Of a stretch of DNA of 32,772 nucleotides, positions 11,703-23,613 are shown piece by piece. The translations under genes were made by a program, and so were the position numbers. Below the pieces are notes generated by a model that worked only from the letters and a program-made list of their open reading frames with translations, was not told where the DNA came from and searched no databases. The DNA lies in the NCBI GenBank assembly GCA_018812525.1, contig JAHJDE010000184.1, positions 1 through 32,772 of the forward strand, in the 5' to 3' direction. Within the stretch, counting starts at the first letter, position 1. Each line of letters begins with the position of its first letter. This DNA is from Gammaproteobacteria bacterium (lineage in GTDB: Bacteria > Pseudomonadota > Gammaproteobacteria > Chromatiales > Chromatiaceae).

Positions 11703-11810
11703 TGCTGTCCTGGGGCCGATTCAAGTCAAACGAACTCGCCATGGCGCGCATTCGCGGGAACCCCGATGGCTGATCGACACAGGGCGAAAAGCTGGGGCAA
11801 GGATCAGTGG

Positions 11811-11968
11811 TTCCCTTGTTGCTGTTCTGTAGTGCGGGTATCTTACGCCTCCATGCGCCTGAAAAAGATCAAGTTCGCCGGTTTTAAATCCTTCGTCGAT
11901 CCCACCACTGTCCACATGCCCTCCAACCTGGTGGGGGTGGTTGGTCCCAATGGGTGCGGCAAGTCCAA
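11811..11968 (+). repeat. Left direct repeat: copy of the smc promoter and 5' coding end
   Basis: This 158-base segment matches 23614–23771 without gaps at a constant offset of 11803; I count about 13 mismatches by eye. Seven of the 13 fall in the 17-base spacer between the putative –35 and –10 boxes. Upstream, the nonamer ATGGCTGAT occurs at 11766 and 23604, so homology may extend further left with a ~35-base insertion in this copy. The match stops abruptly just after the Walker A codons of smc (AAGTCCAA), marking the left island junction. Confidence 0.92.
11816..11844 (+). promoter_or_regulatory. Duplicated smc-type promoter, likely drives the island genes
   Basis: TTGTTG (11816–11821), 17 bases, TATCTT (11839–11844), then only 8 bases to the ATG at 11853. 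Both boxes and their spacing are identical in the copy before intact smc (23619–23647), although the spacer sequence differs at 7 of 17 positions. This conservation pattern is good evidence for a real promoter. The short distance to ATG implies a leaderless or nearly leaderless transcript. Confidence 0.6.
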
Positions 11969-11993
11969 TCCGCTCGGGGATCGATCAGATTAA
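11853..11993 (+). pseudogene. smc 5' remnant (46 codons)
   Basis: The frame encodes the SMC N-terminus ([14 protein letters not shown]...), including the Walker A loop GPNGCGKSN, then leaves homology and stops at TAA 11991–11993 after five unrelated residues. Compared with intact smc at 23656, it differs at three residues near the start (K4, F8 versus E4, L8, plus changes after the junction) and at several silent sites. It cannot form an ATPase head. It may still be translated, because its promoter boxes are kept, and could serve as a leader that feeds ribosomes into the overlapping radical SAM gene. Confidence 0.88.
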
Positions 11994-13269
11994 TCCCCCG
12001 AAATCCCAGCGTGTATTGCTAATTCACCCCGGCACGGAAGAGTCTGGGGGGCGCAGGGATTTTCCCCCATGGGGAATCATTTTTATCGGGCAGGCCCTCG
12101 TCAGAGGTGGGCACCAACCAAAAATCATGGATCTCAACGGTGAGTCGGATATCGAAGAAATCGTATCCGGTGTTGCCGATTCCTTTCAGCCCGACATCCT
12201 GGGCATAACAGGGAAGTGGGGGCGTGCGGCGCGACGGGCTGAACGCCTGTTTCGACTATTCGCCAACCGTTATCCAGAGGTTCGCCGCGTCCTGGGTGGG
12301 CCTTTGGCTTCGACTCTACCCAGTAATGCTGCGATAACGAAATTACCCCACGCCATCCTGGCCGGCGACGGGGAGACCTCGATGCTCCGATGGATCGATG
12401 CCGGGATGCCCGAAGAACGGCAATTGACACCCGCTCAGGACGCAGACCTTTCCCTAAACTCCTTGGTCACGGAGCCTCTATTCGACCTTGCCCCCTATGT
12501 CCGGCCAGGAGAGCGATCCGATCTGGGCGTGCCATCGCTCTACATATCCGGGGCGAGGGGGTGCGTAGCCCGTTGTTCATTCTGCTACACGCTTGCCCAT
12601 GCGCCAGCCGGTTTGCGTGAATCCCCCGCGAAGCGACTGGTTGAGGATATGGCATTACTCCATCGACGCTATGGCGTCGATGGGTTTTATTTCGTCGATG
12701 ATGGACTGGTTTCGCGCGGCCCTTGGCGAAGGGAGTTTTGTGAACGGATTAGCCGTCATGGCAATGGAATGGTCTGGGGCGTTGATTTGCGAACAGCCGA
12801 GGCCACGGATACCTGTCTCCGGGAGCTATGGGAGGGATGGTGCCGAGCGCTCTACATGGGTCTGGAGACAGCCGACGACGCATCCCATCAAACCCTGTTA
12901 CGCAAGGGTAGAACCACGGGGGGCGTGGGAAGCGCCATCGACCGCGCCCTCGGCATGGGTTTTCGCGTGCGGGCATCCGTGGTCATCGGCTGGCCAGGAG
13001 AGACACAGGCATCGGTCGAGCGTACCATCAGGGCGGTTGAGGCCCGCCCGGATTTGCTGGTGGATGTGTTTCGATACAATCCCTTACCGAATACGGCGCT
13101 TGCGCGGGAGCAGGCTTTGCGCTTAGGTTCAAACCACATTTATACCGAGTATGGGCCGGATGCGCCGAATGTCTCGGAGTGTTCGGATGTTTACCTTGAT
13201 AGGGCATGGACAGAATTGGCGCGCATCGCCAATGAAAGAAACGGTGCTGGTATCAAAACCATGGGCTGA
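11950..13269 (+). CDS. B12-binding-domain radical SAM enzyme
   Basis: 439 aa from the only upstream in-frame ATG. The N-terminal ~130 residues, starting at RVLLIHPG, look like a cobalamin-binding Rossmann domain ([31 protein letters not shown]), but without an obvious DxHxxG base-off motif. The radical SAM domain has the CxxxCxxC motif at Cys205, Cys209 and Cys212, then FVDDG and VVIGWPGET-type segments. The layout resembles the BchE/methyltransferase class of B12 radical SAM enzymes, so peptide C-methylation or ring modification is possible; the substrate is unknown. The start ATG at 11950 lies inside the smc remnant, in the +1 frame of its Walker A codons; a TTG at 12016 is the alternative. 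It is the first gene of the nine-gene island. Confidence 0.85.
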
Positions 13270-13289
13270 CATGAGCAGGAGAGGCGAGG

Positions 13290-14942
13290 ATGGCGGCGTG
13301 GAGCGATCAAATGCAGCGGTTTATCCAAGAACTTAATCGGACCGTCAATAATGCAAATGATATAAGGAATTTCTATGATGCTGCCAGTCAGGTGGCTGGC
13401 GAGATCGGTTTCCTGGCCTTGTTGGTGTCGCTGCTGGAGTACATTCAGAAGAATTCGGCATTCTTTGAGAGGGAACGTACAGATTTTGAAACTGCCCAGG
13501 GTAGAAGTTTTGAGCAATTCTCTTCTGATACTCTGAAAAAATGGATTATTGATAATCACGTCCTTGATCAGCTTGTACATGTTAAAGATGTTAAGTCGCA
13601 TCAGCAGCTCTTCACGCAGCTCTGGTCAATCGGTAATAAACAGGGTGTGACTGGAATAGCGCCAAAGCTGATTCTGCTATTCCGCCACATGTCACAGGCC
13701 TTGGCCGACAATTACCCATACGACTCTACCAGTAACCTACCAATCGTACTTTCGGTATCCGACCCCTGTGGGAACGCCTTTCTTATTGGAAAGGATCAAT
13801 CAATGCCCTTTGGTTCACTGAACTCTGGGGGTGCGATCCACGGCTTCCAATTTACCGATTGGAGGGCTGGGTTAACAATCATTCCCCAAAGCCTGGATGG
13901 GGCTTGCATCCATTGGGAGCACCTGAATCCAACCACTACCCGGCGAATGGATAGCTTCATGGAAAATCTGCGTTCCCAGGAGGGACAACAAAACCCTGTA
14001 ATCAAACTGGGGCTTTGGCCGATTTCACGAGACCTGAATATGAAACCGCAGGTATCTCCACCTCCCATAACCTGCCGAGGCCGGGGGCAGGCAAGTGTCT
14101 ATCGCATCATTCCGGAAAAAGGTCTGCATGGAAAAGTTAAACAATTCGGCAATGTGCTTGAGAAGTGTCAGGACGAGCAGATTGCCATTTTGCTCATCCC
14201 TGAGCTGACGATGAGTCCAGCGCTACTGGATGGGATTTGTAAGAAGCTGAGGGATCGCCATTTCGAAGCCGGGGGCAAGGGGGGCGATTATCCCTTGTTG
14301 GTCGTGGCGGGCAGCTTTCATGTGGACGAAAAGGGAGAGGAAAAGGCGAGTGGGGCGTTCAGCAACACCGCCGTAGTGCTCGATGGAGCCGGGGAGGTGC
14401 TCTGGCGAACACAGAAACGCCATCAATTTGTGCTGCGGGGCGATCAAATCCCTCGCATTGTCCCGAGGGTGTGGTCTGGGCTGGCTAAGTCGGGTTTCAA
14501 CTGCGAGCCAAGAACCATTGGAAGCACCATTGAGATCAGGGATACCCCATTGGGACGTACCTGGGTGACGATTTGCCTCGATTTCTTGAACACAGCAAAT
14601 CGAATGGCTGCCGGACCTGAATACCTGGGTATGGCAGACTGGATATTGATTCCGGCGGCCTCATGCCGGACGGATGACTTTGAATCCTCAGCAAAAAGGT
14701 TTGCGAACAGTAGTCAAATCGTGTCTGTCCTAGTGAATGCGTGCTGGCTCATCAAGCTGTTTTCCTGCGAGAAGATTGGGGTCGGTATGGCCTACGCCCC
14801 CCAAGGATTGGGCAAGATCGTGTGGGGTGAGCCCTGTGCAATCGGAAGCGCGGTTTGTGGGAACCCTCCACCGGCAAAGGGTGGCACTTGTACTGGGGGG
14901 TGTGATCAGTGCCTCTTGGTCCTTTCTGTTCCTTGTTCATAA
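13290..14942 (+). CDS. Large protein with C-terminal nitrilase-like (carbon–nitrogen hydrolase) domain
   Basis: 550 aa. The first ~270 residues are unrecognised: helical at the start (residues 1–150), then a region rich in loops. From about 270 the pattern is nitrilase-like: candidate catalytic Glu305 in LLIPELTMSP, Lys376 in LWRTQKRHQF and Cys429 in WVTICLDFLN, in the Glu–Lys–Cys order and spacing of that superfamily. These enzymes hydrolyse or form amide bonds on small molecules or peptides. The tail is Cys- and Gly-rich (CTGGCDQC), which is unusual. ATG 13290 is preceded by AGGAGAGGCGAGG, a good ribosome site, 20 bases after the radical SAM stop. It could act as an amidase tailoring the island's product or as an effector; not decidable. 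Confidence 0.7.
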   Translation: MAAWSDQMQRFIQELNRTVNNANDIRNFYDAASQVAGEIGFLALLVSLLEYIQKNSAFFERERTDFETAQGRSFEQFSSDTLKKWIIDNHVLDQLVHVKDVKSHQQLFTQLWSIGNKQGVTGIAPKLILLFRHMSQALADNYPYDSTSNLPIVLSVSDPCGNAFLIGKDQSMPFGSLNSGGAIHGFQFTDWRAGLTIIPQSLDGACIHWEHLNPTTTRRMDSFMENLRSQEGQQNPVIKLGLWPISRDLNMKPQVSPPPITCRGRGQASVYRIIPEKGLHGKVKQFGNVLEKCQDEQIAILLIPELTMSPALLDGICKKLRDRHFEAGGKGGDYPLLVVAGSFHVDEKGEEKASGAFSNTAVVLDGAGEVLWRTQKRHQFVLRGDQIPRIVPRVWSGLAKSGFNCEPRTIGSTIEIRDTPLGRTWVTICLDFLNTANRMAAGPEYLGMADWILIPAASCRTDDFESSAKRFANSSQIVSVLVNACWLIKLFSCEKIGVGMAYAPQGLGKIVWGEPCAIGSAVCGNPPPAKGGTCTGGCDQCLLVLSVPCS

Positions 14943-15154
14943 ACGGGAAATAGCCGCTGGCGTGCTGGGGGTGTCTGAAGTGCCCTGTTTAGGCCCGATG
15001 GATGCAAAAGACTGTCCTTTCCTATACATGTGACATAAACTTGAGATGCCATCTGCTTGAATGCATGCGCAAAGGACTTGGTGTTCAGAAGCCCTGTCTG
15101 CGCGTGAGCTCGGCATGCGATGAAATCGATAAAGAGGCAGAAAGGAGACAGAAA

Positions 15155-15883
15155 ATGTCTAGCGATACCAACATCGGGCCAGCAGCGGAGGGGGTTCTCA
15201 CTCACATCAGGGAATTGATCCATGCACAAGGGGCAGATCAGCTCCATGAGCCGACGAGAAGGTTGTTTTCTTATTGGTGCAGCGCGGTTTCTGAGCAGAG
15301 CAGGCCCCATTTGCGATTGATTACGGAATACTTGGAGCATGCCACCGACGAAGCCTTCCTCTTCGGTGAAGGCAGGAGACCGCAGTGGTCACTGACCGAT
15401 TGGGGCCATTGCTGGGAAACCGTTTCCTCGCTTGGGCGCTTTTTGCTTCGGCTAGATAAGGATGGTGTCCGCGACGATGACAAGCAAATGATTCAACAAT
15501 TTCCGAACGGACCGGCTTACATCAAGGCGTTTCTTGATGAGAAAGGTGAATCACGACCAATGTCGATCAAGGAGATTCGGGAGCGACTCTATCCCGATGA
15601 AGGAGATAAAGCCATCCAAAAGGTCTTCAATCAACTTGCCCGGCTCGCAAAAGCGGACTTGGTGCGGCGGACAGGTCATCAGCGTGGAATTTACGAACTG
15701 ACTTTACGTGGTCGGCGTGTTGCCGAGGTTTTATTCAATAAGGAGGATTTAAAAACTGAAAATGTTGTGAGTATGGAAAGCTTTTTGATGAGAAGGAATG
15801 GCAATAACCAAACCAAACAGGCCGGAGGATACAGTGAGTCCCATGATTGGGATTCCGTACACGCATTATCAGTGGAAGTGTAA
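15155..15883 (+). CDS. Winged-helix-domain protein of unknown function
   Basis: 242 aa from ATG 15155, which has AAGGAG 8 bases upstream; the longer reading frame back to 15002 has no such site. The N-terminal half (about 1–130) is helical and unrecognised. Residues about 136–197 (MSIKEIRERLYPDEGD...VFNQLARLAKADLVRR...GIYELTLRGRR) have the pattern of a winged helix-turn-helix, with a recognition helix around NQLARLAKADLV and a β-wing after it. It could be a DNA-binding regulator of the island or a protein-interaction wHTH. It is preceded by a 212-base gap, the largest inside the plus-strand block, where a second promoter could lie, though I see no convincing boxes. It ends 2 bases before the ATPase start. 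Confidence 0.65.
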   Translation: MSSDTNIGPAAEGVLTHIRELIHAQGADQLHEPTRRLFSYWCSAVSEQSRPHLRLITEYLEHATDEAFLFGEGRRPQWSLTDWGHCWETVSSLGRFLLRLDKDGVRDDDKQMIQQFPNGPAYIKAFLDEKGESRPMSIKEIRERLYPDEGDKAIQKVFNQLARLAKADLVRRTGHQRGIYELTLRGRRVAEVLFNKEDLKTENVVSMESFLMRRNGNNQTKQAGGYSESHDWDSVHALSVEV

Positions 15884-15885
15884 TC

Positions 15886-18372
15886 ATGTTTGTAACTTCG
15901 TTCTACTCATACAAAGGGGGTGTCGGGCGCACCGCCTGCCTTTTGAATACGGCTTGGCTGATGGCCCTTCGGGGGCGGAAGGTGATGATGCTCGATCTTG
16001 ATCTGGAGGCACCGGGTCTTTCTTCCGCGCATCTCAAGTCTTCTGGCGTTACTTTTGAGCCCTGTCCTCCTTCAAAAGGTTTCTGTGAACTTGTCTATGA
16101 TGCGACTCGGCACAATGGCTTTCCCCGGGGTTGGAACAGTACCTATATGCTTGAAGACCTTGGGCCGGATGGGCGAATGGGGTTGATGTCGGCTGGAGAA
16201 AAGGGGGCGAAATGGTATGAGCAGTTTATTCAGTCCTTTTCTTGGCGTGAGTTTTACTCCGGCAGCAGAGGCGATCTCTTCATGGAGGCGCTCCTCCGCG
16301 GATTTCATGCCCTAGGTTACGAGTATCTATTTATCGACGCCCGCACTGGTCATACTGATGTGGCCGATATTACGACGGTTCAACTTCCTGATCTCGTGGT
16401 TTTTGTTACGAACCTAACTGATCAGTCCGTGGATGGCATAGCCTCCCGAATCCGGACGGTTAATGAAAACAACAATATCTGCATCTCCGATCAGGGTTGC
16501 CCCAGTAGAAAGGCTGGCTTTGAAAAAGTACCTATCCAGAAACTTGTGGTTGCATCTCCCCTGCCGCGAGGAGAGCTTTCCTTGCGGCAGAGCATGGTTG
16601 AAAAGGCCAATGATAAGTTGGGCACAGAGGCGCGTATCGATGTTCAGGTTGACTATCTTGACTTGCTGGCCTTGGGGGAAAGGAACCAAATCGTTTTCCA
16701 ACAAATGAATCCCAAGCACCTTGAGGCCAATGATTTTTTCTCTGGCGTTTGTCGGCCATATCAGAGACTGGCCGATGAGATTTCACGTCGTAACCCAGGT
16801 GACCCAGAGAATCCGATCCATGATGGCAGCAATCTGATTGAGTTTGGACTTTGGCGTTTGGCTATGGCCCATCACATAGAAGCTATTGGACAGGTCGAAA
16901 AGGCGACACCGGACCGATTCATGAGCAACCCTGCGTATATTGCGGCTTCACTAGAGAAGATCCGTGCGCATCTTGAGGCCCTTAGTCCTGGTGAGGACAT
17001 GGGGGAACTTGAGGGACTTCAGGATTTGATCAAGGATGCCTCGCGGGATCAGCAGATCGACAATGCACGTTTGTGGCTGGCATTGTCTTGGCCCTTCATT
17101 CTGCTGAACCAATTCAAGGAGGCTGCGGAAACTGCGGGCAAGGCCGGCGATTTGGCCAAGGAATTGTTGGGCAAAGATGATCGTTGTGACCATGACCTCC
17201 TCGACCTTCAGGCCTTGGCCGCCCTCAGAGAGGGTTACGCTTATACCCTTTGCAGCGATTGGGAAAAGGCAAGGGAAAGGACGAACTATGCGCGAGAGTG
17301 CTACGAGAAGTTGGCGGCACGGCCACTGCTGCATGGTCTTTCTTTAACGCAATTGGCGCGCATCGAGTTGGTACTCGGAAACATGGACGAGGCGGCGCGT
17401 TGGCTGAGCGAAGCTGCCACTCGCTTCATTTCGGAAGGCGGCGAAGAATCCCCAGCTCCTCGTATCAATAGCAAACATGTCCAGGCCGATTATTTCCATG
17501 CTCTGGGGTTAATGCATTACGAACGCGGCAAGGGCAAAGAGGCCGCCGATGCTTTAGAAAAAGCACAATCGCTTTACTCCAAGGTGAATGACGATGTAGG
17601 GGAATTGGATCTTTTTGTTCTTCGTGTCTCACTGGCGATGCTTAGTCACCAAGATGTGGAATCGAAGATAAAAAAGGCGCGTGAGCTGCGGATTCCTGCG
17701 AGCGCGGGACGTCTAAACTTAAGAACGCTCGCTAACAAAGCACAGGGGCTGTCATCCAAAGACTTCGGGCAATTATTGGGAATCGTTGAATCGAACAATG
17801 AGCCAAATATTTTCAATGACGATGTAATCAACAGTGATATTAGAAAATATGACCCAGCCTATCCAGAGCTTGTGAGGCTGGATTACATTCGTCATCTTAT
17901 GACCGTTCCTAGCCTTACTGAGGGGCAAATCGGCGAGGCACGTACTTGGCTGGACTCCTGGCGCGGCGACTCAAATCCAACTGATCAACCCGGCATCCGA
18001 TACGAAATTGACCATCAGTTGCGGCTAACGAGGAGCATGTTTGAGCTGGCTTATGGTAACGGCGCCGATCAGACTGCTATAAGTGAATTGATTCAGTATT
18101 CCAGCGATATGGAGACAGAAGGTTATAGTTTACGTCGGGTACAGACGCTGCTCGCGCTGGCATTCATGGACCACGAGAATCAGACACAACCACTGTTGGG
18201 GGCTCTAGAAGGCCCCAACGCGGTTATTCAGAAATCCAGTGAGTGGAACTGGCTTCTTCCGCTTGCCTTTGTGTTTGTTAGCAAGAATCAGAAATTGAAG
18301 GATGCTTGTGATTCCTTTCGTGCTCGTCTAACCCCTTTCTTACCACAGAGCGCCGACGCAAGTGCATCTTGA
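15886..18372 (+). CDS. KGGVGR-type ParA/MinD-like ATPase with long helical (TPR-like) C-terminal region
   Basis: 828 aa from ATG 15886. The first ~280 residues form a SIMIBI-class P-loop ATPase: FYSYKGGVGRTA at residues 6–17 is the deviant Walker A with the signature Lys10, LDLDLEAPGLSS follows near 37–48, and YLFIDARTGHTD is the Walker B-like strand. From about 330 to the end there are many amphipathic helical pairs with TPR-like spacing (for example ALGLMHYERGKGKEAADALEKAQ). KGGVGR variants are found in large multi-domain ATPases of bacterial signalling or conflict-type loci (family knowledge from memory). It may act as an ATP-dependent scaffold or sensor for the neighbouring enzymes (inference). 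Its stop overlaps the PqqD-like GTG start by 11 bases. Confidence 0.8.
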   Translation: MFVTSFYSYKGGVGRTACLLNTAWLMALRGRKVMMLDLDLEAPGLSSAHLKSSGVTFEPCPPSKGFCELVYDATRHNGFPRGWNSTYMLEDLGPDGRMGLMSAGEKGAKWYEQFIQSFSWREFYSGSRGDLFMEALLRGFHALGYEYLFIDARTGHTDVADITTVQLPDLVVFVTNLTDQSVDGIASRIRTVNENNNICISDQGCPSRKAGFEKVPIQKLVVASPLPRGELSLRQSMVEKANDKLGTEARIDVQVDYLDLLALGERNQIVFQQMNPKHLEANDFFSGVCRPYQRLADEISRRNPGDPENPIHDGSNLIEFGLWRLAMAHHIEAIGQVEKATPDRFMSNPAYIAASLEKIRAHLEALSPGEDMGELEGLQDLIKDASRDQQIDNARLWLALSWPFILLNQFKEAAETAGKAGDLAKELLGKDDRCDHDLLDLQALAALREGYAYTLCSDWEKARERTNYARECYEKLAARPLLHGLSLTQLARIELVLGNMDEAARWLSEAATRFISEGGEESPAPRINSKHVQADYFHALGLMHYERGKGKEAADALEKAQSLYSKVNDDVGELDLFVLRVSLAMLSHQDVESKIKKARELRIPASAGRLNLRTLANKAQGLSSKDFGQLLGIVESNNEPNIFNDDVINSDIRKYDPAYPELVRLDYIRHLMTVPSLTEGQIGEARTWLDSWRGDSNPTDQPGIRYEIDHQLRLTRSMFELAYGNGADQTAISELIQYSSDMETEGYSLRRVQTLLALAFMDHENQTQPLLGALEGPNAVIQKSSEWNWLLPLAFVFVSKNQKLKDACDSFRARLTPFLPQSADASAS

Positions 18373-18622
18373 TCTACCGGGTGGACGTCTTGAGCGTAGC
18401 GCTGATGGCCATGCCTTTCTGTTCGAGGAGCGGTATGGCTTCATCTATCTGCTCAATGAGGTCGGTGAGTTTGTGACCCAAGAGCTGATGAATGCTGACC
18501 GATCCGAAGAAGAGTTGGTCGGCGCCATTAAACAGCGTTTCGAGGTGCAAGGCGGGAGCGATCCTATTGAAGATCTGAAGCAATTTCTCTCAAAGCTGCG
18601 CAGCTATGGCCTGCTGACGTGA
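18362..18622 (+). CDS. PqqD-like RiPP recognition element protein
   Basis: 86 aa with GTG start at 18362, overlapping the ATPase end. The fold pattern is β-rich at the start (residues 1–30), then YLLNEVGEFVTQELMNADRS, a run EEELVGAIKQRFEV and PIEDLKQFLSKLRSYGLL. This matches PqqD-family proteins (L-L-N-x-x-G-x-x-I-x-x-L-x-x-G-x-x-x-x-E-I...F-L-x-x-L-x-x-x-G-L-L). Such proteins are winged-helix peptide chaperones that bind the leader of a ribosomal peptide precursor and present it to tailoring enzymes. Direct translational coupling (GTGA) with the ATP-grasp gene supports their working together. Its presence implies a peptide substrate, for which the 66-aa product encoded at 19673 is the obvious candidate. 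Confidence 0.82.
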   Translation: MHLDLPGGRLERSADGHAFLFEERYGFIYLLNEVGEFVTQELMNADRSEEELVGAIKQRFEVQGGSDPIEDLKQFLSKLRSYGLLT

Positions 18623-19680
18623 ATGCCGAAGTAAATCAGCACGGAAATCCGGTTATTGCGGTTAGTGGCCTGCACGCGGTTGATAACCCCTCTCCTGGCG
18701 TCTCCGTGGCAAGGTGCCTCAAAAAGGCGGGGTACCCTGTTATAGGTCTTTGTTATGAACCCACGGATACTGGCGCATACATGGATGGTTTGTTCGATCG
18801 GGTTTATCGCATGCCCAAGCCGGAGCTAAATCCCGGAGGCTATCTGCGCCGGTTGGGCAGTATCTTTACCGAGACGAACGCGGGTTTCCTGATCCCGACA
18901 CTTGATCCCGAGGTGACCTTCTTCTCCCACCATTACTCAGGGTGCCAGGAGGCGGGTATTCGTTGCGTTGTCCCCTCGCCTGAAGTATTGCATCGGGTCG
19001 CTAAAAGCCATTTGGTTGCAATAGGTCGCGAATCAGGCTTCCGTGTTCCTCGCCTGTATGCTGTTACAACACAGAAAGAGGCGATAACGGCCGCTCAGGA
19101 AATCGGTTTACCCCTGATGATCAAAGGTGCCTTCTATGAGGCGCACAGAATCGAGTATCTCGATGAGATACCGCATTTTTTCCGCAAATTGACCCACCGA
19201 TGGGGCTTGCCTGTACTGCTGCAAGCTATTGTGACCGGCGTTGAGGCAGTCGTGGCTTGTCTGTGCGATCAGCCTGGCCGCCTTGCCCGAGCTGTTGGTA
19301 TGCGCAAGTTTGGGATGAGTGAGCAGGGGACGACATGGTGTGGCGTCACCTTCTACAATGAGCCGCTTTTCGATGCCTGTCGTGATCTGATGGACCGTCT
19401 GAAGTGGATAGGTCCCTGTGAGGTCGAGGTCAAAATTGATGAGCAATCGGGCATGTTGACACTTCTGGAGGTCAATACCCGCTTCCCCTCCTGGATCGGC
19501 ATTGTCCCGGAGCTGGGCAGCAACCTTCCGGATGATTTCATCCGAGTGATGGAAGGGAGAGATATTGGCCCCGATCCCGGTTTTAAAACGGGCGTCCTGA
19601 TGGTGCGTCAACACAATGACCGTGCCATTCCGCTTGCGCGCTTCATTGATTTGGCGTCTGGGGAGATGTCGGGTGGCTGA
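18619..19680 (+). CDS. ATP-grasp ligase
   Basis: 353 aa, GTG start overlapping the PqqD-like stop (GTGA). N-terminal pre-ATP-grasp Rossmann part (VIAVSGLHAVDN, GYPVIGLCYEP), then the ATP-grasp core with LPLMIKGAFYEAH near residue 170 (ATP-binding Lys) and LEVNTRFPSWIG near 283–294 (metal-binding Glu284 and Asn286, conserved Arg). The class resembles carbamoyl-phosphate synthase- or biotin carboxylase-like ligases, which activate a carboxylate as acyl-phosphate for attack by an amine, alcohol or thiol. With a PqqD-like protein next to it, a peptide-carboxylate ligation is likely (inference); it could add an amino acid or close a ring. The gene for the small candidate precursor starts 8 bases before its stop. 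Confidence 0.83.
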   Translation: MNAEVNQHGNPVIAVSGLHAVDNPSPGVSVARCLKKAGYPVIGLCYEPTDTGAYMDGLFDRVYRMPKPELNPGGYLRRLGSIFTETNAGFLIPTLDPEVTFFSHHYSGCQEAGIRCVVPSPEVLHRVAKSHLVAIGRESGFRVPRLYAVTTQKEAITAAQEIGLPLMIKGAFYEAHRIEYLDEIPHFFRKLTHRWGLPVLLQAIVTGVEAVVACLCDQPGRLARAVGMRKFGMSEQGTTWCGVTFYNEPLFDACRDLMDRLKWIGPCEVEVKIDEQSGMLTLLEVNTRFPSWIGIVPELGSNLPDDFIRVMEGRDIGPDPGFKTGVLMVRQHNDRAIPLARFIDLASGEMSGG

Positions 19681-19873
19681 TTCCAAGCCTATCTATTCCC
19701 CGCCGACGATTGAACGTATCGCGCCATTCTTTGCCACTTCGTCGGCAAAAATGCCTTCATTTTTTAATGCGCAACAGCCAAAAGCCAAACAGGGTTCTCC
19801 CTCTTCGTTCTCGGCGAACGATAAAACTCACCTGCCGACCCAGACTGATACTGAAAAAACGGGTAAGGGATAG
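19673..19873 (+). CDS. 66-aa candidate precursor peptide with YxPPxI leader-like motif
   Basis: GTG start 19673 has a strong GGGGAGA site 6 bases upstream and overlaps the ATP-grasp stop; its own stop TAG is directly followed by the decarboxylase ATG. Residues 8–22 read Y-S-P-P-T-I-E-R-I-A-P-F-F-A-T. This fits the Y-x-x-P-x-L/I-x3-G/A-x-F-x(2–3)-T pattern known for lasso-type leaders bound by PqqD-like RREs. The rest is Ser/Thr/Gln/Lys/Pro-rich and low in Gly and Cys (MPSFFNAQQPK..., ending KTGKG). There is no signal peptide or membrane segment. Location between ATP-grasp and decarboxylase genes fits a RiPP precursor. Which part would be the core is unclear. It is not a classical lasso core. 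Confidence 0.6.
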   Translation: MADSKPIYSPPTIERIAPFFATSSAKMPSFFNAQQPKAKQGSPSSFSANDKTHLPTQTDTEKTGKG

Positions 19874-21124
19874 ATGCGGTGGACCACCGCTTTTGATGCA
19901 TTGGGGTATGAAGCTGCCAGCCGCATTGCTGCCGCACAAGGCACCCCCTTCATCGTGATCGATGAGCGTTCTCTATGGGAACGATGGGAGGATCTGAGTA
20001 ACGCCCTTGCGGGGTCACGACTCTTTCTACCCTATAAATCCTGTCCTTTGTCGGCATTACGCGCCTATTTCCATCGTAAGGGAATGGGGGCGGAGGTGGC
20101 TTCTCATGTTGAATTACAAGCTGCGCTCACACAGGGGGTGATGGGGAGCAATATCCTGTTGAATCAGCCACTACGAGACGTTGAGGCCTTCCGCCTTGCG
20201 ATGAAGGTTGGGGCGATTCTGGTGGCCGATGGATTGGAAGATGTGGAAACCATATTGCGAGAGGCCAGCAACATAGATCAAATTCGAATGCTGTTGCGCA
20301 TCAACCCTCTCGGGGGGCAGGGGGCGGCCTGGACACGATTTGGAGTTTCATTGGATGATGAGGCGCTTGAGGCGATTCTTTATCGGGTCCGAAACGAGCC
20401 TAAGCTGGAAATGATCGGTGTCCATTGCCATCTGGGAACCAATCTGATTGATGCAAGCCTATATACCTCTGCGGTAAGTTGTCTCGCAGAGAGATGGGCA
20501 GAATTGGAACAAAGGTGTGGAAATACGTTGCGCGTGATGGATCTGGGTGGAGGATTTCCGACACCATCTTCCTGCCCAACATACCACCATCGGACCCAGT
20601 GGCGTCCTCTGTCGCCAGCCGAGATAATGAATAGTGTTCGGGACATACTCGATCGGAATCAACTTTCTTCGCGCGTGGAAACCTGGTTTGAACCTGGCCG
20701 GGTGTTGTTGGAGGAGGCCGGTGTCCTGGTTTCCCGCGTTCTCGATGTTCGAAATAGCCCCCTTGGTGCCCTGGTCACCTGTGATAGCGGAACCAATCAT
20801 GTGCCGACCGCCGCACATATCCGCCATCCGATAAGTCATCTAATCAACCCTTCAAATTATCCTGGCCAGGATAATGAATGCATTCTTTATGGTGCCTTGT
20901 GCATGCAATCAGATGTGCTGTCATCAAGCTGTATTTTTCCCGCTGATATTAAGCCAGGTGATTTAATAAAGATGGGTGCTGTTGGGGCTTATGACATTGC
21001 CTTCTCATTTCCCTTTATTCAAGGGCGTTGCCCGGTATTGATGCAGAAAATGGATGGTAGTGTCGAGATGATCCGTCGCAGAGAGGGGGTAGGCGATTTT
21101 GCGGCATTGGAATGGGGTCCGTGA
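19874..21124 (+). CDS. Fold-type III PLP-dependent decarboxylase (LysA/ornithine decarboxylase family)
   Basis: 416 aa, close to the usual length for diaminopimelate decarboxylases. Motifs in order: LFLPYKSCPLSAL with the PLP-binding Lys55, GMGAEVASHVELQAAL, GVHCHLGTNLID (His of the PLP ring), VMDLGGGFP (phosphate-binding glycines), FEPGR, then YGALCMQSDVL with the Cys of the C-terminal active-site half, and GAYDIAFSFPF. All catalytic landmarks appear intact. Substrate preference (DAP, ornithine, arginine, carboxynorspermidine or a peptide-linked amino acid) cannot be read. In this island it could make an amine that the ATP-grasp enzyme couples to the peptide, or decarboxylate a ligated residue (inference). 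ATG follows the small gene's TAG with no gap; AAGGGA provides a ribosome site. Confidence 0.85.
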   Translation: MRWTTAFDALGYEAASRIAAAQGTPFIVIDERSLWERWEDLSNALAGSRLFLPYKSCPLSALRAYFHRKGMGAEVASHVELQAALTQGVMGSNILLNQPLRDVEAFRLAMKVGAILVADGLEDVETILREASNIDQIRMLLRINPLGGQGAAWTRFGVSLDDEALEAILYRVRNEPKLEMIGVHCHLGTNLIDASLYTSAVSCLAERWAELEQRCGNTLRVMDLGGGFPTPSSCPTYHHRTQWRPLSPAEIMNSVRDILDRNQLSSRVETWFEPGRVLLEEAGVLVSRVLDVRNSPLGALVTCDSGTNHVPTAAHIRHPISHLINPSNYPGQDNECILYGALCMQSDVLSSSCIFPADIKPGDLIKMGAVGAYDIAFSFPFIQGRCPVLMQKMDGSVEMIRRREGVGDFAALEWGP

Positions 21125-22662
21125 GACACGCAATATTGTCCCATGTCCCTGCCGAGGCAAGGAGTTGGGTTGGGCAGCTATTGGCAAATGCAGATGAAGC
21201 ATCTTTAAAGCAATTCTTTCTATGGCACAGTTCGGAATCGTTACAAGGAATCTTTTCGTGGACCCCAAAGTGGGCGCCACCTGACTGGCGGGTCTTCATT
21301 CGACATGGCATTCCGGACTGGCCCCCAATTCTCCGTAATACCAATTGCTATCTTTCCTTGGCAGAGTTCAACACCCTTCGTGATATTGCAATCAGAGAAA
21401 TGGGGGACTCTGGCCCGGAAGAAGCGGCCTATCGCCTGTTTAGATTCGTAAATACTCACATCGAGTGGGGTCCTGTTTGGGGCTCATCCACGCCAACTGA
21501 GATATTAGCCAGGCGGCGGGGTGGATCATTGCATCTCGCCCAGGTTCTTGCTGCCCTGCTTCGCGCATTGTTTATTCCCGTTCGATTGGTCGAAGAAATA
21601 GCGTTGGCACCCGATGTTTGGAGAGAGCAAGCCCGTAATTCGTGGCATGGCATCCATCCCGTTGCCTGCGAATGGATGGGCGATGATGTTTTTTATCACC
21701 CTTTTTGCGAGGCTAGAATTGGTGCGACATGGGTGCCGATTGACCCTCAGCGGGGTCAGTTCGGTATCCGCGAATTTCAACAACATCTGCGCGTCCCCCA
21801 ATTGCTGAAGATTATAATTAGAACATGGGAAGACTATGGGCAAGGGATAGCAAGGACTCGGCGATATACCTTGGCGCCATTAGTGAAAGAACCGACTCCC
21901 CAAGGTCTTTCATTTAAACGCAACTTGCAATCTATCAACCTATTGTTGGGGCAGGAGATCGAGCGTGGTGGTGTAATATTTGATACACAGAAAGGCTTAT
22001 TGAGGAAGATTGAGGCAGAGGCCAGGGATCTATGGCTCAATGGGGGGGGGAATAGTCCATGCTTTTTATATACAGGGCAAGATTATGATCCAACTGTACA
22101 TCTTTTCTTCCAAGCCAGTATCCATGAACGACTGTATTTTGTTAATCCGTCCGACGACATCCTCCCTGTTACGGGGCAAACATGGATATTAACCGGTAGT
22201 GCCATATCTAGATTGACGAAGGAGGCGTATTGGATGTCAATAAAATCCGGTGCAAGGATTGCCGTTTTCTATGATTCATGGGGAGATGGCGAGGCCTGGA
22301 TAAATCATATACTTGAGCATATCGGCGGTTCCTTGGGGGACTGGATTATTCCTCCAAGGAAGTCGCTGGAGTTCACAGCGGTAACAGGTTATGGTCGGCT
22401 AAAGCGAGGTTGCCTGGTCCCATCCCAGTTGGATTTACGGCTAAGCCGCTCTCTTCGTGGCCTGCATGGTTGTGATGGGAAGGTGGTTGTTCATGCAAGC
22501 GGAGAGGGGCGAGAAGACCTGGTGGCTTGTACCCTGCCGGTTGGGAAAGGAAGGCTTACGCTAGCACCGATTGTAATTCCATCCCGTGCCGATCCCTATT
22601 CGGTCAGCGCCACTGCCGGTTGTCATCGGAGATTGCTTGGAGCCCTGCTTGGAATGGATTGA
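21112..22662 (+). CDS. Transglutaminase-like superfamily protein with Ser at the catalytic Cys position
   Basis: 516 aa. Residues about 90–215 match the transglutaminase-like (papain-like) core: RRRGGSLHLAQVLAALLRALFIPVRLV aligns with the R-G-x-C-x-x-x-A-x-x-x-x-x-L-L-R-x-x-G-I-P-A-R family segment, putting Ser139 where Cys is expected. HPFCEARIGATWVPIDP supplies His196 and Asp211. The remaining ~300 residues are unrecognised; part of it (VIFDTQKGLL..., VAVFYDSWGDG) hints at an additional α/β domain. Loss of the nucleophile would make it non-hydrolytic, or it may use Ser. In lasso systems the leader peptidase B2 has this fold. ATG 21112 is used; GTG 21121 (GTGA overlap) is equally possible. 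Confidence 0.65.
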   Translation: MGSVRHAILSHVPAEARSWVGQLLANADEASLKQFFLWHSSESLQGIFSWTPKWAPPDWRVFIRHGIPDWPPILRNTNCYLSLAEFNTLRDIAIREMGDSGPEEAAYRLFRFVNTHIEWGPVWGSSTPTEILARRRGGSLHLAQVLAALLRALFIPVRLVEEIALAPDVWREQARNSWHGIHPVACEWMGDDVFYHPFCEARIGATWVPIDPQRGQFGIREFQQHLRVPQLLKIIIRTWEDYGQGIARTRRYTLAPLVKEPTPQGLSFKRNLQSINLLLGQEIERGGVIFDTQKGLLRKIEAEARDLWLNGGGNSPCFLYTGQDYDPTVHLFFQASIHERLYFVNPSDDILPVTGQTWILTGSAISRLTKEAYWMSIKSGARIAVFYDSWGDGEAWINHILEHIGGSLGDWIIPPRKSLEFTAVTGYGRLKRGCLVPSQLDLRLSRSLRGLHGCDGKVVVHASGEGREDLVACTLPVGKGRLTLAPIVIPSRADPYSVSATAGCHRRLLGALLGMD

Positions 22663-22699
22663 GGGGTGGCTGAGTTCCCCCATTGGTCCGGCAGAATAT

Positions 22700-23437
22700 T
22701 CAAATTTCAACGAATTTCAGATTTTGAGGGTTGATCTCTGAATTACTGGCCAGGATTTTATTGTTCACCTCTGCAACATAAACAACGTCCTGAAAGTATG
22801 CTGCTTCCGCCTCCCTATGAATTCTTTGCATTTCCTTTATTAAAGCGGAACTGCCCCGATTGCCTGATACACCGAAATTGCAATTGGCAAGTCCTAACTG
22901 GACCTTTAATCTGCCTCTTGGATCATTATTAGTGGCATCAAGTGCTTTCTGATAGTAAGCCTTCCCATCTGAATACTGCTCTTCCCTAAAATAGAAATAT
23001 CCAACTTTCTCTGGATAACAACGCTCTACCATTGCTTTTGATGGAATTTGATCGGCCGCATTTCTATTATCCAGTTCGATCAATCGAGGCATCTCATGCA
23101 GGATCTCTCGCGCCAAATCGAATCGCTTAAATTCGAACGCCACCGCGTAGGCATCAGGAATCAGCATCATGGCCTCTCCGGTAAATGAGGCCGAAGCAGA
23201 AAACATCACACGAGCACGGGATTTCCATGTTAGGCCGCGTGCATAGTAGTTATTTTTATCACTTGCAATTTCTTTGGCTTGCCGGAATGCTGCTAACATT
23301 GCGTATCGGCAAATCTCCCCATTTTCTGCGCTCAGTCCATAAGGGCGTTTGTTTTGCCATAGCTCTTCTGTTAGCGCTAATAATTTCTTATCTTCTCTAT
23401 TAACGTAGAATCTACGGATTTTATCGAGCTCACACAT
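22700..23437 (-). CDS. TPR-like helical protein, unknown function
   Basis: 245 aa on the opposite strand, converging on the transglutaminase-like gene with a 37-base gap. The pattern is all-helical with TPR-like pairs, for example VGYFYFREEQYSDGKAYYQKALDATNNDPRGRLKVQLG. No catalytic motif, signal peptide or TM segment. The start ATG 23437 has an excellent site, AAGGAGA, 7 bases upstream. It is clearly more AT-rich than smc and belongs compositionally to the island. TPR proteins like this often serve as adaptors or regulators; being the only gene in reverse orientation, it may be an immunity, control or independent cargo gene. No function is assigned. Confidence 0.75.
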   Translation of the reverse strand: MCELDKIRRFYVNREDKKLLALTEELWQNKRPYGLSAENGEICRYAMLAAFRQAKEIASDKNNYYARGLTWKSRARVMFSASASFTGEAMMLIPDAYAVAFEFKRFDLAREILHEMPRLIELDNRNAADQIPSKAMVERCYPEKVGYFYFREEQYSDGKAYYQKALDATNNDPRGRLKVQLGLANCNFGVSGNRGSSALIKEMQRIHREAEAAYFQDVVYVAEVNNKILASNSEINPQNLKFVEI

Positions 23438-23613
23438 TTGTTTTCTCCTTCTGGAATATAAAATATGATGGAAAATCTGCTTCTAATCGTAGAGTGAATA
23501 CTTGATCGTCATTCACCTTAAATCTTTGCCCGAATTTATCACGGTTTGCGAAGAAAGCAACGCAACAGCAAAACCGATATGCGGCATAATGAAGCGCGTT
23601 GCAATGGCTGATG

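Follow-up and report, generated by a model that had tools for sequence, protein, structure and literature searches.

Several described systems resemble in part the locus considered here, which occupies positions 18362 to 21124 of a 32,772-nucleotide stretch of DNA (the window, by which we mean the whole stretch; contig JAHJDE010000184.1 of assembly GCA_018812525.1, from a Gammaproteobacteria bacterium of the Chromatiaceae). The locus encodes a PqqD-type recognition element (RRE) of the kind found with ribosomally synthesized and post-translationally modified peptides (RiPPs), an ATP-grasp ligase, a 66-amino acid protein and a pyridoxal phosphate (PLP) decarboxylase. The RREs of lasso peptide systems, the B1 proteins such as TbiB1 and FusE, appear to share with it both the fold, as modelled, and a W/Y-x-x-P-x-I/L sequence. 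However, the relatives of our locus carry the leader on an enzyme rather than on a precursor, and a lasso cyclase is not seen: an earlier note on this DNA, made from the sequence alone, had observed no asparagine-synthetase-like cyclase, and we found no asparagine-synthetase Pfam domain among the eight window proteins scanned, a search that did not extend to the remainder of the genome; on that ground we rejected a lasso cluster. In the butirosin pathway, the ATP-grasp enzyme BtrJ loads the carrier BtrI, and BtrK is the decarboxylase. The window shares the ligase and the decarboxylase, for which BtrK is the second-best solved match, but it has an RRE and a leader peptide where no acyl carrier was found (none of the same eight proteins matches the carrier-type PP-binding Pfam), and for the wider family BtrK ranks below the diaminopimelate (DAP) decarboxylases. 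Graspetide clusters also place an ATP-grasp ligase beside a small leader-bearing open reading frame (ORF), but the window ligase is nearest to PRK12767-like proteins related to carbamoyl-phosphate synthase (CPSase), and the leader is not on a precursor ORF in the loci examined. In borosins the substrate is fused to its modifying enzyme, so that there, likewise, a recognition or substrate segment is borne by an enzyme; our system differs in the enzyme, in the N-terminal position of the tail and in having a separate RRE protein. The closest solved structure, for the window decarboxylase and for its family, is the N-citrylornithine decarboxylase FigC/FslC, with which a Met after the catalytic Cys is common (a Met described for FigC only), but the match begins after the YxxP part of the family profile, and FigC works with an NIS (non-ribosomal-peptide-synthetase-independent siderophore) synthetase, not an ATP-grasp enzyme (PMC7857480, in excerpt). 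Finally, daptides are a RiPP class named for two amino termini, and RRE and decarboxylase are among the terms in the excerpted paper on them (PMC10036551).

We find that a PqqD-type gene, an ATP-grasp gene, a gene for a decarboxylase with a leader-like N-terminal tail and a gene for a urea-transporter (UT)/M23 protein form, as gene order and sequence indicate, a conserved unit in many bacteria, and that in the window the presumptive tail has been split off as a small protein. The core features of the window are as follows.

18362..18622, + strand: PqqD-type RRE protein, 86 amino acids (PF05402; AlphaFold2 and Foldseek)
18619..19680, + strand: ATP-grasp ligase, 353 amino acids, CPSase/PRK12767-like (PF15632, PF02786)
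19673..19873, + strand: putative leader-bearing small protein, 66 amino acids (decarboxylase frame, codon use and motif tests)
19694..19711, + strand: YSPPTI, a motif resembling RRE-recognition sequences (11.9 bits on a six-column profile)
19871..19876, + strand: TAGATG junction, the small-ORF stop and the decarboxylase start in one frame (read from the sequence, with an AAGGG-like site 5' of the ATG)
19874..21124, + strand: PLP decarboxylase of the alanine-racemase fold, 416 amino acids, without the N-terminal tail (PF02784, PF00278)

The four genes overlap or abut just as the earlier note had described, and Pfam bears out its names for PqqD, ATP-grasp and fold-III decarboxylase. Its interpretation of the locus as a new RiPP-type system stands in part only: a leader-type motif is indeed paired with a PqqD-type RRE, but a free-standing precursor is not supported as the general design of the family.

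This last point emerged from the relatives. When 274 genomes of the window's class were searched, strong ATP-grasp relatives (E <= 2.6e-46) were seen in 11, including the window's own, which holds a second, canonical copy on contig C212; 12 loci were taken from the class. A scan of named genomes with the ATP-grasp alignment gave at least 574 stretches that encode relatives. From these we took the 80 that match the window protein best, so that the sample is not a random one. These 80 span 19 phyla: going by the titles of the records, 30 are from Bacteroidota, 8 from Myxococcota, 7 from Ignavibacteriota and 5 from Pseudomonadota, 15 further phyla are represented, and 5 loci are unassigned. The resulting 92 loci are 91 distinct ones, L034 (genome G052) and L081 (named Ectothiorhodospiraceae) being the same locus and one of four pairs at 95% identity or more. 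Each of the 12 class loci encodes a decarboxylase and, downstream, a protein that belongs to a single blastp cluster, and 11 have PqqD upstream, the contig of L038 ending there. Among the named loci PqqD lies upstream in 77 of 80 (within 420 bases in 76, and about 2.2 kb away in L080), a decarboxylase is in reach in 79 (the L084 contig ends before it) and a UT-profile match is found downstream in 71. No description of this unit was found in the open-licence papers to which the search was confined.

In nearly every relative the leader sits on the decarboxylase. An N-terminal tail of about 45 residues carries the motif [YW]xxPx[IL]xxxxxGxxNK[FY]G in 91 of the 92 loci; in the class loci, the enzyme accordingly begins some 45 residues earlier than that of the window, with W/Y-x-x-P-x-I/L...G..NKFG in most. 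The motif is present in 12 of 12 class loci and in all 79 named loci that have a decarboxylase, 77 by script and two by eye (L060, where the tail overlaps the ATP-grasp end, and L098, where it is in a shifted frame). Our leader profile of 18 columns, six of which make up the YxxPxI part, was drawn from 89 relatives' tails (88 distinct, owing to the duplicated locus). All 89 have Y/W, P at +3 and I/L/M/V at +5, by construction of the register, while G+11 is seen in 85, N+14 in 76, K+15 in 82 and G+17 in 78. When all frames of the 92 loci were scanned, the full profile exceeded 14 bits in 91, with the best match at the decarboxylase N-terminus; in 78 of the 80 named loci this match is in frame just before the decarboxylase domain, L098 being frame-shifted and L084 having none. 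No separate small ORF in the family range was found among the 92 loci, two short frames reaching 16-17 bits against a family minimum of 24.5. As a control, 12 cassette decarboxylases score 22-46 bits, compared with 4.7 at most for 16 other fold-III decarboxylases of the same genomes (22 other matching rows in 11 genomes, 17 of them with loci, less L158, which was read in the wrong frame). In an AlphaFold2 model of an Aquificaceae cassette decarboxylase (L120, 53-row alignment), residues 1-30 have a predicted local distance difference test score (pLDDT) of 48-57, compared with more than 90 for most of the body, and the leader segment therefore looks like a free, flexible tail. The earlier note had held that homologous loci with no conserved small ORF between the ATP-grasp and decarboxylase genes would speak against its precursor, and this is in substance what the relatives show: the leader profile lies at the decarboxylase N-terminus in 91 of 92 loci, and a free-standing precursor is not supported as the general design. 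In the window itself a stand-alone precursor or carrier is possible.

The window decarboxylase lacks such a tail (-2.4 bits on the leader profile), and the small ORF stands in its place. It runs from a GTG at 19673, with a GGGGAG-like site 5' of it, to the TAG ending at 19873, and its 66-residue translation, V/M-ADSKPIYSPPTIERIAPFFATSSAKMP..., has Y8-x-P-P11-x-I13-x3-A17-x-F19-x2-T22 exactly as first claimed; the mechanically called ORF has an earlier start, ATG 19616, and 85 amino acids. The small ORF and the decarboxylase share one frame, in which the sole separator is the TAG, with the ATG directly after it. Of the six frames, that of the small ORF has the best codon use, at +0.066 bits per codon with codons trained on neighbouring genes; the PqqD, ATP-grasp, decarboxylase and transglutaminase-like genes average +0.12 to +0.14, most of them being in the training set. 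On the six-column profile YSPPTI scores 11.9 bits, above the family minimum of 10.4, and shuffled sequences reached this score in 8 of 20,000 cases within the first 21 positions and in 16 of 20,000 when any position was allowed. None of the 244 mechanically called ORFs of the window exceeds 9.7 bits in its first 21 positions, a comparison in which the small-ORF frame is called from ATG 19616 and its motif, lying further in, is not credited. With the same place, the same frame and YxxPxI kept, the small ORF is, as far as sequence can tell, the detached N-terminal tail of the decarboxylase.

Several results speak against this interpretation. The small ORF reaches just 2.6 bits on the full 18-column profile, where the family minimum is 24.5; 144 of 20,000 shuffles equal that score in the first 21 positions, another window ORF does better (3.6 bits), and in a test with a hidden Markov model (HMM) 12 of 2,000 shuffles beat it, so neither the full leader profile nor the HMM alone would recognise it. 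The distal GxxNKFG block is absent from the small protein, whose best distal score, -4.0 bits, is equalled or exceeded by 18,925 of 20,000 shuffles. The motif Tyr lies 43 residues from a conserved enzyme Gly in L120 (Y5 to G48) and about 80 in the window, which implies the gain of about 40 residues, among which Ser, Thr, Gln and Lys are frequent, and this tail region of the small ORF has no relative for comparison. The split form, moreover, was seen in one genome only among the matches listed. A chance motif, in an ORF that is untranslated or unrelated to leader recognition, would account for the poor full-profile and HMM results and for the lack of a relative. We nevertheless consider it very unlikely and rejected it on the shuffles for the YxxPxI part near the N-terminus (8 of 20,000), the motif also falling at the place and in the frame where relatives carry their leader.

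The junction itself invites a different objection, namely that the TAG is a nonsense codon within the decarboxylase gene, through mutation, readthrough or assembly error, and that a divergent cluster is degenerating. A single in-frame TAG is what would be expected, the assembly is a draft of 215 contigs, the distal leader block is lost, the window decarboxylase has a long branch, and the transglutaminase-like protein has Ser in place of the Cys of the canonical motif. Against decay, an ATG with an AAGGG-like site follows the TAG directly, the large ORFs are open and tightly overlapping, the family-invariant columns of the decarboxylase are kept, and none of the five other frames equals that of the small ORF in codon use. 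We regard decay or a misread stop as improbable.

We return to the detached tail and to the protein that may read it. The window PqqD passes PF05402 (35.5 bits, cut-off 23.4), and its AlphaFold2 model (40-row alignment, pLDDT 83.5) has the order bbb-aaa, which is the strict RRE order in the excerpted text of PMC12710340; section 7 of the same source gives the recognition sequence of the PqqD/FusE/McjB/StsC groups as W/Y/LxxP/L/I. When this model was compared with the PDB by Foldseek, the first six matches were all lasso B1 proteins solved with leader (6jx3, 5v1v, 5v1u), with template modelling (TM) scores of 0.72-0.81 to the six chains; 6jx3 (E 8.7e-4, TM 0.80) was the only one of the six with E below 0.001. 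The modelled protein thus has the RRE fold. Three curated PqqD models were tried and rejected, all below their cut-offs: that of pyrroloquinoline quinone biosynthesis (TIGR03859, 16.8 bits, cut-off 46), the lasso model NF033530 (26 bits, cut-off 70) and the HPr-rel-A model (22.5 bits, cut-off 35). In several cassettes of the window's class (L036, L037, L039 and L042) PqqD forms the C-terminal domain of a larger protein, of 255-273 amino acids, and the N-terminus of the L039 protein has a weak, below-cut-off match to SlmA (TetR-type).

The adjoining ligase passes PF15632 and PF02786. Its best NCBIfam matches are PRK12767-like CPSase-related proteins, all below cut-offs; 55 columns are invariant between it and 12 relatives, and the best identity to it among the best 80 of the at least 574 stretches is 38%. 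No relatives were found in the viral contigs searched. Plasmids gave five matches, of which the strongest is on a Streptomyces plasmid, in a region where neither PqqD nor a decarboxylase is mentioned among the gene names.

The decarboxylase passes PF02784 and PF00278, and the label LysA-type, applied to it in the earlier note, is misleading. It does have TIGR01048 as its top NCBIfam model, but at 155 bits against a cut-off of 297.9, and its best solved relatives are the N-citrylornithine decarboxylase FigC/FslC (7kh2, 110 bits) and then BtrK (94), with DAP decarboxylases at 86 or less; with a 13-row family profile FigC is again the best of the PDB, at 305 bits. Ordinary lysine biosynthesis by a DAP decarboxylase, to which that top model might point, is hardly credible: plain LysA was rejected by the curated cut-off, a Met follows the catalytic Cys, the best solved structures are FigC and BtrK, and the genome has another fold-III decarboxylase, at C175:37455, scoring in the range of the canonical paralogues. 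In a tree built without L155, L160 and the long-branch rows, the window enzyme and 27 cassette decarboxylases lie on one side of a branch and eight canonical paralogues on the other, with support of 100/100.

The substrate pocket suggests what kind of reaction this may be. In alignment A3, a chosen subset of 53 rows that includes the window enzyme, 52 rows have Met directly after the catalytic Cys. According to excerpts of PMC7857480, FigC has this Met instead of the acidic residue by which a free side-chain amine is bound, the DAP decarboxylase Arg for the distal carboxylate is also replaced, and the substrates of FigC, SbnH, AcsE, MccE and BtrK are conjugated or carrier-bound. In our alignments FigC, the window enzyme and the family consensus all have Thr at the position of the Arg in the DAP decarboxylase 'MMRP' motif. 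This Arg we take to be the distal-carboxylate one. From the likeness to FigC and BtrK and the altered pocket residues we infer that the ATP-grasp enzyme would make a conjugate that the decarboxylase then uses, the window substrate probably being a conjugated amino acid. The invariant columns of the family are kept in the window enzyme, among them K55, E273-x-G-R276, C343, D347 and Y373.

Other comparisons run counter to this view of the enzyme. The cassette-family profile ranks DAP and D-Orn/Lys decarboxylases (229 to 168 bits) above BtrK (163), and a fold search of the family also puts DAP decarboxylases, after FigC, above BtrK. Among NCBIfam models, LysA outscores FslC for the window enzyme (155 vs 125 bits, both far below cut-offs, that of FslC, NF041039, being 500) and for L039 (226 vs 214 bits), although the FslC model leads for L043. 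In addition, the window decarboxylase is on a very long branch, with 6.4 changes per column, which makes its placement unsure.

Gene order, the motif, the RRE fold of the model, the predicted flexibility of the tail, the enzyme family and the altered substrate-pocket residue are all seen in the sequences and models. The explanation that we favour, and to which we would give an even chance, is that of an RRE-organised ligase-decarboxylase pair whose leader tail is split off in the window as the 66-amino acid protein. A discrete RRE, an ATP-grasp ligase and a FigC/BtrK-related decarboxylase would act as one unit: PqqD would bind the YxxPxI of the tail and bring the tail to the ATP-grasp enzyme, the ligase would join an amino acid to a partner through an amide bond, and the decarboxylase would remove the carboxylate of the conjugated amino acid to leave an amine. 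Both the binding of the tail by the RRE and the order of ligation before decarboxylation are deduced from the comparisons above, and the leader may serve merely to dock the enzymes or may be the carrier of the amino acid. Here the split is awkward for the favoured explanation, because a tail that is a mere tether should lose its role once detached, unless the other end of the small protein binds the enzyme.

If, on the other hand, the leader segment is itself the substrate, onto which the ATP-grasp enzyme loads an amino acid and on which the decarboxylase processes the loaded residue, then the carrier is fused to the enzyme in relatives and is a free 66-residue peptide in the window, where it could possibly be a genuine RiPP precursor on which the radical SAM and transglutaminase-like proteins act as well. 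A split form with its own start and a ribosome-binding-like site would be natural for a leader that acts in trans, and conservation does extend past the RRE site, through the Gly, Asn, Lys and Gly columns counted above. Described enzymes offer a parallel, since glutamate bound to an 87-amino acid carrier is decarboxylated by BtrK, and a modified intermediate of microcin C by MccE (PMC7857480, in excerpt). However, the Lys is found in 82 of 89 tails and is not invariant, so that an obligatory Lys carrier is doubtful; the small protein of the window lacks the distal block, the eight scanned proteins gave no PP-binding match, and the split form is a single instance. We consider a peptide carrier or precursor a possible but rather unlikely alternative. 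Its widest form is more doubtful still: pathways across phyla in which a ribosomal leader takes the acyl-carrier role, presented by the RRE, loaded by the ATP-grasp enzyme and decarboxylated in a BtrK-like manner to a tethered amine, with the carrier being the decarboxylase's own tail in most bacteria and a free peptide in the window genome.

The tether, the carrier and the decaying gene differ in what they make of the split, the last leaving neither docking nor carriage to explain, and the window is therefore the informative case: with leader and enzyme separate there, docking and carrier function can be tested directly against each other. The issue is not confined to one genome, the cassette being common, with ATP-grasp relatives in at least 574 stretches. 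Genome mining uses RREs to seek precursor peptides in small ORFs, and a recognition sequence borne by an enzyme would escape it. An RRE-leader pairing on an enzyme in many phyla would mean either that such pairing is used beyond peptide natural products or that peptides serve as carriers in a new chemistry. The carrier, if true, would be categorically new, and otherwise the locus is a variant of RRE-dependent systems.

The window departs from the cassette in two respects, the leader on a separate ORF and a transglutaminase-like gene in place of UT/M23, while PqqD directly upstream of ATP-grasp is kept. The neighbouring features are these.

21112..22662, + strand: transglutaminase-like protein, 516 amino acids (PF01841, 44 bits)
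15847..18372, + strand: KGGVGR-variant ATPase with tetratricopeptide repeats (TPRs), as context (NF047398, 119 bits, cut-off 90)
11969..13269, + strand: B12-binding radical SAM gene at the island edge, as context (PF04055, PF02310)
11809..11968, + strand: second copy, of 160 bp, of the smc-like gene's 5' end, left island edge (blastn)

The KGGVGR-ATPase gene overlaps the PqqD gene and the transglutaminase-like gene overlaps that of the decarboxylase, within an operon-like run on the + strand of radical SAM, nitrilase-like (a weak match), winged-helix-like (also weak), KGGVGR-TPR, PqqD, ATP-grasp, leader protein, decarboxylase and transglutaminase-like genes. The transglutaminase-like protein, read from its translation, has the motif GGSLHLA, with Ser at the nucleophile place, where the canonical motif has Cys. 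The lasso Cys protease B2 has a transglutaminase-like fold, and the window protein matches PF01841 but differs by this Ser. No full-length match was found in 397 other genomes of the phylum (there were two short, weak ones), none in plasmids and none in viral contigs, where an exact-peptide look covered close relatives only.

The locus is part of a low-GC island that spans about 11.6 kb (11969-23612), with GC of 48-55% from 13 kb to 23 kb and 59% in the first kilobase, compared with 59-72% outside. It is flanked on the left by the 160-bp duplicate and on the right by the full copy, from 23613, of what we take from its recognisable sequence to be an smc-like gene; the repeat is 87.5% identical over 160 bases (blastn) to L135 of the same-genus genome G657. 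That genome has a single smc-like copy, no island there and upstream sequence unlike the left flank of the window, and its one ATP-grasp match lies elsewhere. Because the radical SAM ORF begins within the smc repeat, the real 5' end of this gene may be missing at the island edge. As part of the favoured explanation, and with the same even chance, the window version, which is very divergent, would be a horizontally acquired form of the widespread cassette. Directly upstream, at 13290-18372, lie genes for the weakly nitrilase-like protein, the winged-helix-like protein and the KGGVGR-variant ATPase with TPRs, a set that, we presume, resembles those of conflict systems. PADLOC gave partial matches only, the best being PDC-M28B, which scores 60 bits on a 49-residue segment of the KGGVGR protein.

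The cassettes of other genomes show some variety of their own. The conserved fourth gene, for example L039:2088-4271, encodes a protein in which a urea-transporter domain (PF03253) is joined to a peptidase domain of the M23 type (PF01551). HxGxD-like and HxH patterns are both present in just 5 of the 71 UT-matching downstream proteins, which makes peptidase activity uncertain. In a variant from Rokuibacteriota (L088), PqqD and the tailed decarboxylase are separated by two ATP-grasp matches, and the UT match is only weak. OmpR/CpxA-like two-component genes lie upstream of the cassette in L036, L037 and L042, and downstream of it, in L036-L039 and L042, are a conserved protein without a Pfam match and a TPR protein.

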